This document shows, piece after piece, positions 4,905-10,425 of a stretch of 11,540 nucleotides of DNA (its first letter is position 1; every line of letters begins with the position of its first letter). The stretch is from the NCBI GenBank assembly GCA_003157225.1, contig PMIZ01000285.1:395-11934 (forward strand), read 5' to 3'. Position numbers and translations under genes: made by a program. The notes under the pieces were generated by a model. It saw only the letters and a program-made list of their open reading frames with translations. It ran no database searches and was not told the DNA's origin. This DNA comes from Actinomycetota bacterium (GTDB lineage Bacteria; Actinomycetota; Thermoleophilia; RBG-16-64-13).

Positions 4905-4934
4905 CCCAGAGGGGCGCAGGCGTTCGGAGGTCCG

Positions 4935-5528
4935 ATGGATCACTGGAAGAACGGTGCGACAATGGCGACTACCGCTTCGGGCCCCGCGACGGGCCATGGG
5001 CTCACCGTGAGCACTGGCGAGGGGCCATATTACGTGATTGGCGCCGCACTGGTGACCAGCGGCAAACTGAACTACACTGACCTGCCCGGCGACCCCATCA
5101 AGATCGTTGGACACGTATACAGCGGCACCGACACATCCAAGCCGTTGGCCGCCGCGAAGATCGAGATCTGGCAGGCGGATAGTGACGGCGTCTATCACCC
5201 TGAGGGGAATGGCCACATCGGCAAGTACGCCGCCGACGAGATCGCTCTGCGCGGCCACGTGCTCACCGACGGCTCAGGAGCCTTTCAGTTCACCACCATC
5301 TACCCAGGGCACTATTAGGGCCGCACGCGGCACATCCACGTACGGGTTTCGGCGCAAGGCTACCGTGAAGTGGTCACGCAGATCATCGTGCCGGCCAAGC
5401 CCGGTGATGACACCACCCCTGATAACGACATGATCGCCCGCTATCTTCCGAAGACAAACCTCGTGACGTTCGGAGACGAAGACGGCGTCCAGACAGCCGG
5501 CTTCGACTTCTTCATCGCCGCCGACTGA
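4935..5528 (+). pseudogene. Intradiol ring-cleavage dioxygenase with in-frame TAG (pseudogene or recoded)
   Basis: ATG 4935 follows GGAGG at 4926-4930. The frame encodes 127 residues, then TAG at 5316-5318, then 69 more clean codons to TGA 5526. Both halves belong to one short (about 197-residue) intradiol dioxygenase: GEGPYY near the N-terminus, EIWQADSDGVYHPEG, TDGSGAFQFTTIYPGHY, then GRTRHIHVRVSAQGY and a beta-rich tail ending AGFDFFIAAD. By analogy with protocatechuate 3,4-dioxygenase the Fe(III) ligands are the Tyr of DGVY, the Tyr of PGHY and both His of HIH; all four are present. The TAG falls directly after the second Tyr, so a terminated product lacks both His ligands and cannot be an active dioxygenase. 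Family members often have Pro there. Nothing else is damaged, so the mutation is recent, a sequencing error, or (unlikely) a read-through codon. Intradiol enzymes open catechol-type rings with O2. Confidence 0.85.
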
Positions 5529-5540
5529 GCGCCGGCCGGC

Positions 5541-5676
5541 CTGGCAGGCTGCTGAACAACGACGCTGCGCCGGGTGCCCTCTGGGCGTGGGCACGATCGC
5601 CGCGCGCGAGACAAGGACGCAGTATCGCTCTGGCCAGCATGTCCTGGTGGCCGTGGCTTCGTTGTTCAGCGGCCTT
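5541..5676. mobile_element. MITE-like element with 16-bp terminal inverted repeats (repeat copy 1)
   Basis: The ends 5546-5561 (AGGCTGCTGAACAACG) and the reverse complement of 5660-5675 (AGGCCGCTGAACAACG) match at 15 of 16 positions, bounding a 130-bp segment with no plausible gene. The left 82 bases recur at 9083-9164 (about 77 of 82 identical, no gaps). It fills the gap between the convergent dioxygenase and decarboxylase genes: its left end is 17 bases after one stop codon and its right end abuts the other (TAG at 5679-5677). As RNA it would fold into a long stem and could act as a bidirectional terminator. No target duplication is obvious. Confidence 0.6.
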
Positions 5677-6705
5677 CTAAGCCAGCCCGATAGTAGCGGC
5701 GTTGCCGCTGTAGATCTGCGTCTTCTCGCTCTCGGAAAGCCCCAGTCCCTCGATGAAGGCCAGGCACTCGTTCATCTCCTCGTAGGGGTAGTCGGTGCCC
5801 AGGAAGATCTTGTCCATTCCCAGAGCTTCCCGTGTGCACTTGAAGGCCGCCGGTAGGTAGTTGCCGCTTGTCGTGACCAGCATGTTGTCGTGGAGGTATT
5901 CGCTCGGCACGCGTTTCAAGCTGGGCACGGCGTCGGGGTCGGCAGCCTTGATGTGTGGCCGCACGAAGGGATGGTCGATGCGTTGCATCAAGAATGCCAG
6001 ACCCTCGCCGTAGTGGCCCAGCATTATCTTGAGCTTCGGAAAGGCATCGAAGGCGCCGCTCAGCACCAGCCGCATCGTGACGGTCGCCGTCTCGAGACCA
6101 AACCCGAAAGCGGCGCCCCCAAGAGCCAGCCCATAGGTGCGCAGCTCGTCGATCATCGGTGCTGTGGGGTGGATGTAGATGAGCACGTTCAGCTCCTCGG
6201 CCTTGGCCAAGATCGGCCAGTAGCGCTTGTCGTCGAGGTAGGAGTCGCCGAAGTTGGAGTGCGTCTTCCAGCCTTTCAGGCCCAGCTCCTTGACGGCGCG
6301 CTCGAGTTCACGTACGGCGGCATCCGGATCCTTGGGTGCCAAGGCGGCGAACCCCATGAGCCTGTCCGGGTGTTTGTCGATGGCGGCGGCCAACTCGTCG
6401 TTGGCTTGTGATGCAAGGCGAGTCCCGATCCTAGGCGAAAAATGATCGATGCCCGGGGCAGTGAGCGAGATCACAGCCAGGTCGATGCCGGCGGCGTCCA
6501 TCTCTCTTATGCGGCCCTCGCCGAATTCGAGAAGCCGGTCGAGAAGCTTGTCCCCGTGCGGCTCGAAGGCGTCAGGCCAGTACCACAGACGGCGCTTGCG
6601 CCGCGCAGAGTCGTCGGCAAACCGCGGGTACCCGGGGTTGGCGTACATCGCGTCCACCCAGCCCTGGGTGGCAAAGTGGGCCTCGAGGTCGATGGTCCTA
6701 GGCAT
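5677..6705 (-). CDS. Metal-dependent amidohydrolase/decarboxylase (gamma-resorcylate decarboxylase / ACMSD-like)
   Basis: 342 residues, normal for the amidohydrolase-2 family. The metal-site residues line up with gamma-resorcylate (2,6-dihydroxybenzoate) decarboxylase: Glu8 and His10 in the N-terminal LEAHFA motif (the ExH variant), His179 (YIHP), His231 (LGHYGEGL) and Asp305 (LGTDYPYE). Other shared family text includes TTSGN and the ending GNAATIGL. Known members remove CO2 non-oxidatively from aromatic or semialdehyde acids (gamma-resorcylate, 5-carboxyvanillate, aminocarboxymuconate semialdehyde); a few are hydrolases. Soluble, with no signal peptide. GGAAGGGG lies about 6-13 bases before the ATG. 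It is the last gene of a minus-strand set, 48 bp after the MoaD-like gene. Pairing with a resorcinol/pyrogallol-type molybdoenzyme suggests hydroxybenzoate decarboxylation. The exact substrate is not readable from sequence. Confidence 0.85.
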   Translation of the reverse strand: MPRTIDLEAHFATQGWVDAMYANPGYPRFADDSARRKRRLWYWPDAFEPHGDKLLDRLLEFGEGRIREMDAAGIDLAVISLTAPGIDHFSPRIGTRLASQANDELAAAIDKHPDRLMGFAALAPKDPDAAVRELERAVKELGLKGWKTHSNFGDSYLDDKRYWPILAKAEELNVLIYIHPTAPMIDELRTYGLALGGAAFGFGLETATVTMRLVLSGAFDAFPKLKIMLGHYGEGLAFLMQRIDHPFVRPHIKAADPDAVPSLKRVPSEYLHDNMLVTTSGNYLPAAFKCTREALGMDKIFLGTDYPYEEMNECLAFIEGLGLSESEKTQIYSGNAATIGLA

Positions 6706-6753
6706 GTCGTCGCCCCTTCCGGCGGATTCGGGTGGCCGTGCGAAGCCGGGACT

Positions 6754-7038
6754 CTAGCCGCCGGCGATGGGGAGGAAGATCAGCACGTCGTCGCCATCGG
6801 CAAGGACGAGCTTGCTGCCCTGCGCTGGGGTCAGGTCCCGCCCGTTGACGACTATTCGAAGTGGAGCGTAGAGCGTCCCCTCGGTGGGCCGCGCGTAAGG
6901 CGCGAACTTCTCGCCCTTCTCCTCCACCAACTTGGTCAGCAGGCCCGGGAAGGTGGCGCCCTCGGGGAGGGTCACCTCGACCTCGGCAGCGCCGAGCACT
7001 TGCCGGATGGGACCCAGGCTGCGGACCGTCACCTTCAC
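6754..7038 (-). CDS. MoaD/ThiS-family ubiquitin-like sulfur carrier, AOR-associated
   Basis: 94 residues with GTG start at 7038, two bases after the TGA of the aldehyde oxidoreductase gene. The protein shows the beta-grasp pattern (MKVTVRSLGPIRQVL, VEVTLPEGATFPGLLTKLV, DGDDVLIFLPIAGG) and ends in the required Gly-Gly, the site adenylated and thiocarboxylated by a MoeB/ThiF-type enzyme. MoaD is the sulfur donor for the molybdopterin dithiolene. A copy tightly joined to an AOR gene is a common arrangement and probably serves tungsto/molybdopterin supply for that enzyme. It is slightly longer than typical MoaD (about 80) because of a loop, GEKFAPYARPTEGTLYAP. No MoaE, MoaA or activating enzyme is in the window, so those would be elsewhere. 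Confidence 0.87.
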   Translation of the reverse strand: MKVTVRSLGPIRQVLGAAEVEVTLPEGATFPGLLTKLVEEKGEKFAPYARPTEGTLYAPLRIVVNGRDLTPAQGSKLVLADGDDVLIFLPIAGG

Positions 7039-7040
7039 GC

Positions 7041-8912
7041 TCAGACGCCCAACCTGTCGGCGGCGTAGCCCAACCGCAGCTCTTCCAGCTTGGCCCGAGT
7101 GGGCACACCTTCTTTGGTCCAGCCGCGCGCCTCGTAGTACTCGTCGAGCATGGTGTCGAGATCGGCCTGCGAGATCAGCTCGCCCTTGGACGCCCCGGCC
7201 TTGATGGGCTCGGTCTTGAGCCGTTCGGGCAGGTCATCGTCGGCCCGAGTGAAACCGGCCAGAGCATTGAACACTCGGGCCAGATTGTTGATGCGCTCGC
7301 CCACCTGGTGAACTTCCTCAGGCGTTATCTTGAGCCCTGTGAGACCCTCCATGAGGTTGGAGGTGTTCTCGAACATGAAATCGGCCACCGCCATGTCCAT
7401 CAAGAAGACGCACATGGTGGCGGAGTCGGCGACCACAGTGCGGGCGTCCTGGTTCCACTTGGTGAGCTTGCCCTTGCCCTCGATGGCCAGGCGATCTACC
7501 TGGTAGGGAATGGGAATACCGAAGATCTCCTGGAAAGCGTAACCCTTGTTGTGGTCCGCACCGGTGAAGGCCGTGGCGAGGCTGAGACCGTGGGCCTTGG
7601 CCCCGCGCACGTCGTAGCCCGGAAGCTCGAGACCCTTGATGTGCATGGCGTACTTCTCGCTGCCCTTGCCGATCCTCTCCGCGGCGGCCTTGGTACCGTC
7701 GGCCAGGATGTCGCCGAGGCCTTCGCGCTCGCCCATCATGTGGAGGAGCCTGATCATCGATTGGTCGTTGCCGAAGCTGAGGTCCATGCCCCCCGTGTCC
7801 TCGAGGGTGAGGATGCCCTTCTCGAACAGCTCCATGGCGAACGCGATGGTCACGCCGGCCGAGATGGTGTCGAGGCCCAGCTCGTCGGAGATTCGGTCGG
7901 CCGCGATGATGGCATCGGGGTTGTCGACCCCGGTGACGCCGCCGAAGGAGTAGAGCGTCTCGTACTCCGGCCCTTCGGTGAAGAAGCCGGCGTAGGGTGG
8001 CTCCTTCGCGAGCCGCATCTGACTGCAGCCCACCGGGCAGCCGGAGCAGGCAGTCTTGCCCGCGCTGAGCGCTTCGATGGCGAACCCGCCTATCTTGTCG
8101 GCCGGGGTAAACACTCCCGTGCCTGCCCAGTTGATCGCCGGGTAGATGCCGAGGGCCTGAGTAAGATCCAGAGTTGTCGACGTGCCGTAGCGGGAGAACT
8201 CCGGGTAGAGTATGGGGCTCGCCTGCATGCCGGCGCGCATGCGCCTGCGGGCCGCGTCGTACTTGTCATGGTCGGCGATATCGAGTTGGAGATCGCCGCG
8301 CAGCGCGATCGCCTTGAGGTTCTTCGAGCCCATCACGGCGCCCAGTCCCTTGCGTCCGGCCACCCGGCGCTCGTTGACGATGGCCGCCATCTTCGAGAGC
8401 TTCTCCCCTGCCGGCCCGATGCAACTGACGCGGATGTTCTGGTCGTGCAGCTCGTCCTTGATGACCTGCTGGGTGTCGGTACTGGTGAGGCCCCAGATCA
8501 TGGAGGCCGAGCGGAACTTGACGTCGCCGTTCTTGATGTAGACGTAGGTGGGTTCCTCAGCCTTGCCCTCGATGATCATCACGTCGTACCCGGCGCGTTT
8601 CATCTCCACCGGGAAGTGCCCGCCCGTGGTGGCCACGCCCATAGCCCCCGTGGCCGGGGACTTCGCGTTGACGGCCATGCGGCTCGCGCAGGGGATGGTG
8701 GTACCGGTGAAGGGACCGGGCGCGTAGATCAGCTTGTTCTCTGGTCCGAGCGGGTCGCAGTTCGGGTCGACCTCGTCGTAGAGATACTTAACGGTGAGTC
8801 CCGACCCTCCGATGAAGTCCTGAGCGACTTCTTCGGCCAGAGGTTCTTCTTGGAAGGTCTTTTCGGTGAGATTGATCCTCAGGACCCTGCCGGCGTAGCC
8901 GCCGCGATACAT
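7041..8912 (-). CDS. Aldehyde:ferredoxin oxidoreductase family (tungsten/molybdopterin) enzyme
   Basis: 623 residues. ATG 8912 is chosen because GGAGTGAC precedes it and the family's first strand (YAGRVLRINLTEKT) starts immediately; the upstream extension to 8963 has no family match. Seen: FIGGSGL, the phosphate/pterin segment RRVAGRKGLGAVMGSKNLKA, and 4Fe-4S ligands Cys289, Cys292, Cys296 (CSGCPVGC) plus Cys501 (DSATMC), nearly the same positions as Cys288/291/295/494 of Pyrococcus furiosus AOR. The usual DxxGLC box reads DSATMC. The family oxidises aldehydes to acids, reducing ferredoxin, in the cytoplasm; some relatives act in benzoyl-CoA reduction. It is first in an apparent operon with MoaD and the decarboxylase. 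No ferredoxin-like subunit gene lies next to it. The substrate is unknown. Confidence 0.9.
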   Translation of the reverse strand: MYRGGYAGRVLRINLTEKTFQEEPLAEEVAQDFIGGSGLTVKYLYDEVDPNCDPLGPENKLIYAPGPFTGTTIPCASRMAVNAKSPATGAMGVATTGGHFPVEMKRAGYDVMIIEGKAEEPTYVYIKNGDVKFRSASMIWGLTSTDTQQVIKDELHDQNIRVSCIGPAGEKLSKMAAIVNERRVAGRKGLGAVMGSKNLKAIALRGDLQLDIADHDKYDAARRRMRAGMQASPILYPEFSRYGTSTTLDLTQALGIYPAINWAGTGVFTPADKIGGFAIEALSAGKTACSGCPVGCSQMRLAKEPPYAGFFTEGPEYETLYSFGGVTGVDNPDAIIAADRISDELGLDTISAGVTIAFAMELFEKGILTLEDTGGMDLSFGNDQSMIRLLHMMGEREGLGDILADGTKAAAERIGKGSEKYAMHIKGLELPGYDVRGAKAHGLSLATAFTGADHNKGYAFQEIFGIPIPYQVDRLAIEGKGKLTKWNQDARTVVADSATMCVFLMDMAVADFMFENTSNLMEGLTGLKITPEEVHQVGERINNLARVFNALAGFTRADDDLPERLKTEPIKAGASKGELISQADLDTMLDEYYEARGWTKEGVPTRAKLEELRLGYAADRLGV

Positions 8913-8986
8913 GTCACTCCTTTGCACGACGTGCGGGGAGACACTAGTAGGCTGCCGAACCAATAAAGTGCTTCAATGCAGCCAAA

Positions 8987-9001: not shown

Positions 9002-9082
9002 CTACCGTGCAATGTTAGCGCAAGTTGCCGCGCGTGGCGAGTCTAGTTCGGCACTCCGACGGACATTTCGCTCCGCGCCTCG

Positions 9083-9164
9083 CTAGCAGGCTGCTGAACA
9101 ACGACGCTGCGCCGGGTGCCCTCTGGGCGTGGACACGATCGTCCCGCGCGAGAGAAGGACGCAG
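9083..9164. repeat. Partial second copy of the MITE-like repeat (direct orientation)
   Basis: It aligns without gaps to 5541-5622; over 9086-9164 against 5544-5622 I count 75 of 79 identical bases. It carries the same terminal motif (AGGCTGCTGAACAACG) but no right-hand inverted end is found downstream, so it is a truncated copy. With copy 1 it brackets the minus-strand AOR-MoaD-decarboxylase block in the same orientation. Confidence 0.85.
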
Positions 9165-9318
9165 GAAGCAAGGGACGGGTGGACCGCGCCTTCCTCGTCA
9201 CCCCTCGGGGATGATGTCTCTTCAGCTCGCTCTACTTGTAGACCATCGGCTGGACTGTGCACTAGAGGAATATCATCGGAGCCATCACAGGAGGCCAAGC
9301 AGGGCGTGTGGGGATAGT

Positions 9319-9347
9319 TTGGGGTCGTCGCCCTTCCTCGATATGAT
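9319..9347 (+). promoter_or_regulatory. Probable sigma70-type promoter of the SDR gene
   Basis: TTGGGG (9319-9324), a 17-base spacer, then TATGAT (9342-9347). The -10 is one base off consensus, the -35 is weak. The predicted start near 9354 gives a leader of about 55 bases to ATG 9409. Confidence 0.5.
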
Positions 9348-9408
9348 GGTCGCTGACTTCTTCCGTCTCGGACCGCGGAAGCCCCCCACCAACACCCGGA
9401 GGCGAAGA

Positions 9409-10425
9409 ATGATCGCGATCACCGGCGCGACCGGTCATGTGGGCAATGCGCTGCTGCGCGCTCTGGCCGCACGCCAGACGGCCAGCGAAAGCCAAGGAGA
9501 ACCGGCCGCCGGTCGGGTGCGAGCCATCGTCCGACCGGGGAGAGACGTCAGCTCCTGCTTCGCGGGTCTGGATGTGGAGGTGGCCGAGGCCGACATGCGG
9601 GACCAGGAAGCACTGGTCGCTGCCTTCCGAGACGTCAATGTGGTGTTTCACCTTGCCGGCATCGTCAGCATCACCAAGGAGCGATACGAGCGGCTGCACG
9701 CAGTGAACGTCGAGGGCACCAGCAACGTACTCGCCGCCTGCCGTGAGACCGGGGTCCGGCGCTTGGTCTACACGAGTTCGATCCACGCCTTTGTCGAGCC
9801 GCCGCACGGAACCTGCACCGACGAGACCACTGCGGTTGATCCCCAGTTGGTCACTACCCCCTACGCCAAGACAAAGGCGGAGGCCACCCGGCTAGTCTTT
9901 GCCGCCGCGCGTGACGGGCTGGATGCTGTCGTCGTCTTCCCTTCAGGCATCATCGGGCCATACGACTTCAAGCCGAGCCAGACGGGGCAGTTGGTGCTCG
10001 ACCTGTCCAGGGGGCGAATCAAGGCATGGGTGGACGGCGGCTATGACTTCGTGGATGTGCGCGATGTCGCCTCCGGTCTGATAGCGGCTCTCGAGCGCGG
10101 CCGCTCGGGAGAAGGGTACGTGTTGTCCGGAAGCGAGATCAGCGTCTGGGACCTGTTCCACACCGTCGCCGAACTCTCAGGCACGCCTGCGCCCCGGCTG
10201 CACGTCAACATGCGGCTGTTGCGCGCCGTCAGCCCCCTCATCCCCTTCTACTATTGGGCCACACGCCAGCAGCCGCTCTTCACCAGCATGTCGCTCGAGG
10301 TCATAAACTCCAACTGCGCCATGAGCTGCGCCAAGGCCGAACGCGAGCTGGGCTTCGCACCGCGCCCGCTCCGCGACACCCTCGGAGACACCATCGGCTG
10401 GTTCAGAGAGCAGCGGATGCTGTAG
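9409..10425 (+). CDS. Extended SDR: NAD-dependent epimerase/dehydratase family protein
   Basis: 338 residues. ATG 9409 is preferred over in-frame upstream codons because GGAGG (9398-9402) sits 6 bases before it and the Rossmann motif starts at once: MIAITGATGHVG (TGxxGxxG). Further landmarks are the D-M-R segment after the second strand (EADMRD), VVFHLAG, the catalytic Ser region VYTSSIH, the catalytic YAKTK (YxxxK), and FPSGIIGPYD, all of the extended short-chain dehydrogenase fold. The C-terminal part is variable and its substrate pocket gives no firm clue; relatives include sugar epimerases, dihydroflavonol-4-reductase-like and sterol dehydrogenase-like enzymes. A role on an aromatic-ring-derived hydroxy or keto intermediate is possible but unsupported. 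It has its own promoter and is 245 bases from the repeat copy. Confidence 0.88.
   Translation: MIAITGATGHVGNALLRALAARQTASESQGEPAAGRVRAIVRPGRDVSSCFAGLDVEVAEADMRDQEALVAAFRDVNVVFHLAGIVSITKERYERLHAVNVEGTSNVLAACRETGVRRLVYTSSIHAFVEPPHGTCTDETTAVDPQLVTTPYAKTKAEATRLVFAAARDGLDAVVVFPSGIIGPYDFKPSQTGQLVLDLSRGRIKAWVDGGYDFVDVRDVASGLIAALERGRSGEGYVLSGSEISVWDLFHTVAELSGTPAPRLHVNMRLLRAVSPLIPFYYWATRQQPLFTSMSLEVINSNCAMSCAKAERELGFAPRPLRDTLGDTIGWFREQRML

Follow-up and report, generated by a model that had tools for sequence, protein, structure and literature searches.

Intradiol ring-cleavage dioxygenases (PF00775) are characterised by a Tyr/Tyr/His/His pattern of iron ligands and a PGxY-x-GRTRHIHV core. The gene described here has both features together with the domain match, but a TAG breaks it after the second Tyr ligand and before the two His ligands. 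Its four ligands are presumably the counterparts of Tyr408, Tyr447, His460 and His462 of protocatechuate 3,4-dioxygenase. Genes of pyrrolysine (Pyl)-containing MttB (TIGR02369) likewise have an in-frame TAG with conserved sequence to either side of it, and Pyl-type MttB is itself present in relatives of the host. In MttB, however, the in-frame TAG occurs in all listed rows over the cut-off (15 genomes), whereas the dioxygenase TAG is private to one sequence and its position is variable, and the host of the dioxygenase is not known to have pyl genes. With ordinary bacterial pseudogenes carrying a single nonsense mutation, the gene shares one premature stop, intact flanks and sporadic occurrence, and we found no difference from them. 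Expression of pyrrolysine-encoding mttB and mtbB by Actinobacteriota bins is described in PMC10805028, and Pyl and Sec in marine Deltaproteobacteria are the subject of PMC8318568.

We analyzed a stretch of 11,540 bases (the window). The dioxygenase gene in it has the following features.

4926..4930, forward strand: ribosome-binding site of the dioxygenase, GGAGG (from the sequence)
4935..5315, forward strand: intradiol ring-cleavage dioxygenase (PF00775), N-terminal 127 codons (PF00775 match, alignment)
5193-5195, forward strand: presumed iron ligand Tyr87
5313-5315, forward strand: presumed iron ligand Tyr127
5316..5318, forward strand: in-frame amber codon TAG, codon 128 (from the sequence)
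5319..5525, forward strand: last 69 codons of the dioxygenase, open (frame, homology)
5331-5333, forward strand: presumed ligand His133
5337-5339, forward strand: presumed ligand His135
5526-5528, forward strand: TGA, natural end of the frame (from the sequence)

The frame extends from the ATG at 4935 to the TGA at 5526-5528 and is interrupted once, by the TAG at codon 128, so that under the standard code it is not continuous and the product ends at Tyr127. The amber codon directly follows Tyr127 of the PGHY motif and precedes His133 and His135; the split between Tyr and His ligands reported in a preliminary description of this DNA was thus confirmed at 5316-5318 within 4935-5528, as were the 69 clean codons after it. 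By itself, this openness is weak evidence, because 13% of shuffles keeping the base composition also leave a 69-codon stretch open. Homology, by comparison with relatives, indicates that the continuation is real. The N-terminal 127 residues matched PF00775 with E=6e-15 and 55.6 bits (cut-off 27.3), and the C-terminal 69 residues alone reached 21.0 bits (E=2.5e-4), under the gathering score of 27.3. Compared with its nearest homologue, P0001, the protein was 80% identical across the 102 columns 5′ of the TAG and 78% identical across the 69 columns 3′ of it. Among columns conserved at 80% or more in the homologue alignment, 2 of 47 were changed before the TAG and 0 of 23 after it, which bears out the strong family similarity claimed earlier for both sides. 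The stretch after the stop therefore showed no further decay and no sign of relaxed selection; this is compatible with a young mutation, and in so short a stretch few lesions would be expected either way. All four presumed Fe(III) ligands were retained, as had been proposed: Tyr87, Tyr127, His133 and His135 are in frame, both His residues lying 3′ of the stop. Aligning the protein with homologues and with solved relatives (nearest by sequence, 4ilt and 4ilv), in combination with what is known of the family, led to this assignment, and Tyr127 presumably corresponds to Tyr447 in protocatechuate 3,4-dioxygenase. The H-x-H motif was present in all but 4 of 108 homologues. No signal peptide was seen by eye in the window's dioxygenase, whereas several homologues (for example in L001) begin with a signal resembling that of a lipoprotein.

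To see which residue relatives carry at the TAG, a check proposed in the preliminary description, we aligned P0001-P0087, taken from the 108 homologues with the weakest 21 omitted. The column was variable: each of the 87 proteins had a sense residue, of nine types in all (Ser in 37, Pro in 17, Thr in 12, Glu in 8, Gln in 6, Arg in 3, Trp in 2, and Leu and Gly in 1 each). For several of these residues, some codon differs from TAG by a single base, and the large residue Trp is found in P0001 and P0004. None of the 108 homologues ended at the TAG site, in a matching of ends that used predicted proteins and may miss untranslated relatives. Of 399 class genomes searched in six frames, 123 gave a match, mostly to distant relatives; among the matches listed, none had an in-frame TAG, and one had a TGA. 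No viral contig was found to carry the 27 bases before the TAG. None of the diverged homologues compared shared the TAG; the one protein that ends there, P0229, is identical, and it was alone in doing so among the 12 proteins of a second search. P0229 is 94 residues long, identical to residues 34-127 of the window's protein, and ends at Tyr127, an end that probably reflects the TAG. It comprises two member sequences on one contig, the longest of 2,046 bases, shorter than the window, and it may stem from the very sample or read set that gave the window.

The remaining genes are as follows.

Cut at the window edge: pyridine nucleotide-disulphide oxidoreductase
In the window: pyrogallol hydroxytransferase-like large subunit, and an Fe-S subunit
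In the window, listed before the dioxygenase: GntR/FCD regulator
5677..6705, reverse strand: amidohydrolase (PF04909), ending in TAG (profile match, orthologues)
6754..7038, reverse strand: ThiS-family small protein (PF02597), TAG right after a C-terminal Gly-Gly (profile, orthologues)
Opposite strand to the dioxygenase, with the amidohydrolase and the ThiS-family protein: aldehyde ferredoxin oxidoreductase (AOR)
9025..10425, forward strand: NAD-dependent epimerase family protein, ending in TAG (profile, orthologues)
After the epimerase, cut at the window edge: class-III aminotransferase

Judged from these genes, the neighbourhood looks like one for catabolism of polyhydroxylated aromatics. 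Among the few close homologues of the large subunit that bear names are Thermoleophilia bacterium (twice), a Thermodesulfobacteriota and a Dehalococcoidales, which makes the phylum of the host a presumption. In the bin of about 3.2 Mb G001, this subunit gave 43 matches, 17 of them at 50% identity or more, in a search at E up to 0.001 that includes fragments and distant enzymes; one distant match (C235:3319-5868) was reported with one TAG and one TAA inside. AOR, the ThiS-family protein and the amidohydrolase (5677-8963) are also neighbours, in varying order, in L038, L039, L040, L041 and L043, and L042 has AOR and ThiS only. An initial scan had flagged internal stops (TGA, TAA and TAG) in several AOR genes. 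Of 15 AOR loci, 3 had no stop and 12 had one, each at an alignment edge, either ahead of the start (query 15-17) or at the end (query 631-635); the TAG seemingly inside AOR of G041 and G011 lies at the very end, outside alignments that stop at query 631. The 15 loci examined thus gave no sign of recoding.

TAG is also an ordinary terminator in the window, ending three of the eight other genes whose 3′ end falls within it. Five orthologous loci of the amidohydrolase equal it in length or differ by at most two residues, and their stop is TGA in two and TAG in three. The ThiS-family protein matches PF02597 to the last profile position, and 10 orthologous loci likewise end in Gly-Gly, followed by TGA (4), TAG (4) or TAA (2). 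All four epimerase orthologues with the same end use TAG, and three further loci end elsewhere or are cut; the true start of the epimerase is uncertain, its domain beginning near codon 130. Directly 3′ of the dioxygenase lies a MITE-like stretch of 154 bases (5534-5687) with 32-nt inverted ends that are 81% complementary. One of these ends contains the amidohydrolase TAG and the codons just before it, and 82 bases of the stretch are repeated (94%) at 9083-9164, before the epimerase.

A single premature stop in a frame conserved among relatives is what a nonsense pseudogene presents, and we consider the gene to be, probably, a recently inactivated accessory intradiol dioxygenase, in which a young nonsense mutation struck a dispensable gene. 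Judging from the relatives, one point substitution would have converted a sense codon at a variable position to TAG. The truncated product, devoid of both His iron ligands, should be inactive; no other lesion would be seen because the mutation is young, and loss would be tolerated because the gene is sporadic in the lineage and so presumably dispensable. Among 18 genomes of the G001 family, one was found to carry the dioxygenase, which is therefore regarded as an accessory gene. Among the options left open in the preliminary description, a recent nonsense mutation fits best; error is less likely, and recoding lacks support at the site.

The intact sequence after the TAG would equally be expected from functional read-through or from a base error. 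A sequencing or assembly error at 5316-5318 needs only a single-base event and agrees with the lack of any other lesion in the dioxygenase, but P0229, identical over residues 34-127, ends at the same Tyr. Because this second record ends at the same codon, a one-off assembly error becomes less likely, even though both may derive from the same sample or reads, and we regard error as improbable. Far more improbable is an enzyme formed by two separately translated pieces, for which we found no supporting evidence. No in-frame ATG, GTG or TTG precedes the His ligands after the TAG; the starts available (GTG 5370, GTG 5388 and ATG 5430) all lie 3′ of both, so the earlier judgement that a separate C-terminal fragment is unlikely holds, the first start being GTG 5370 and the first ATG 5430. 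Another explanation is decoding of UAG in the host, either as pyrrolysine or by a suppressor tRNA, which would yield some full-length dioxygenase with a residue inserted after Tyr127; such read-through would hide the mutation from selection. It fits the frame, intact on both sides of the TAG, and the column holds a large residue, Trp, in P0001 and P0004. On the other hand, the column is variable and none of the 108 homologues ends at the site, the predicted RNA fold 3′ of the TAG does not stand out (z 0.37), and the window has no predicted tRNA. It also gave no Rfam match. The preliminary description had stressed that recoding would place a non-standard residue beside the active-site Tyr; the codon does adjoin Tyr127, but this emphasis is weakened because nine different residues occupy the position in relatives.

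What makes pyrrolysine worth weighing is the lineage. PylS scored over the family cut-off in 19 of the 399 class genomes, in 13 of 20 selected genomes and in 5 of the 18 related genomes also surveyed for the dioxygenase; tRNA-Pyl(CTA) lies beside pylS in G007 and G083; and mttB over the cut-off, with an in-frame TAG, was found in 15 of 27 chosen genomes, including the near relative G061. PylS-bearing relatives include G007, G011, G023, G049, G059 and G083, often with several TAG-mttB per genome, and in G071 TAG-mttB and PylB were found and PylS was not. The TAG terminators in the window do not exclude pyrrolysine, because G049 and G079, which bear PylS, use TAG too, their ThiS-family gene also ending in Gly-Gly-TAG. 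Against this, PylS over the cut-off was found in none of seven near relatives (G001, G031, G043, G055, G061, G073 and G095, whose AOR is at least about 80% identical or whose aminotransferase is at least 74% identical), which is weak evidence in draft bins of untold completeness, and neither was PylB, although G043 and G055 gave matches under the cut-off. The window's AOR shares 79.8-84.5% identity with those of G061, G095, G055, G031 and G043, and its aminotransferase 86-87% with those of G031 and G001. In trees of both proteins, the window groups with PylS-negative genomes, without full support at its forks; the next branch outside its group in the AOR tree is the PylS-bearing G041, the wider aminotransferase group contains the PylS-bearing G007, and either gene may have moved laterally. 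In G061, the nearest by AOR, PylS was not found, yet there are three mttB copies that contain an in-frame TAG, and two of these score over the cut-off. These lie on one 6,030-base contig without tRNA-Pyl, so mis-binning is possible (L091, contig C35, 1-6030; neither PylS nor PylB is over the cut-off in the bin). Either G061 uses Pyl and its pyl genes are missing from the bin, or the contig is mis-binned. The lineage thus makes pyrrolysine read-through possible, but the site itself lends it no support, and we judge amber decoding in this gene, by pyrrolysine or a suppressor tRNA, to be unlikely.

As a nonsense mutation, the dioxygenase TAG is ordinary. A more far-reaching idea, which we hold to be unlikely, is that the host, presumably from an Actinomycetota lineage in which pyrrolysine machinery is scattered, sometimes decodes this UAG as pyrrolysine, putting Pyl beside an iron-ligand Tyr, and that Pyl decoding acts as a standing suppressor that shields chance ambers in unrelated metabolic genes from decay. 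The pyrrolysine genes of the relatives make it testable whether a Pyl decoder reads through chance ambers elsewhere. If the idea were true, a protein that is not a methyltransferase would carry Pyl by accident, not by design.
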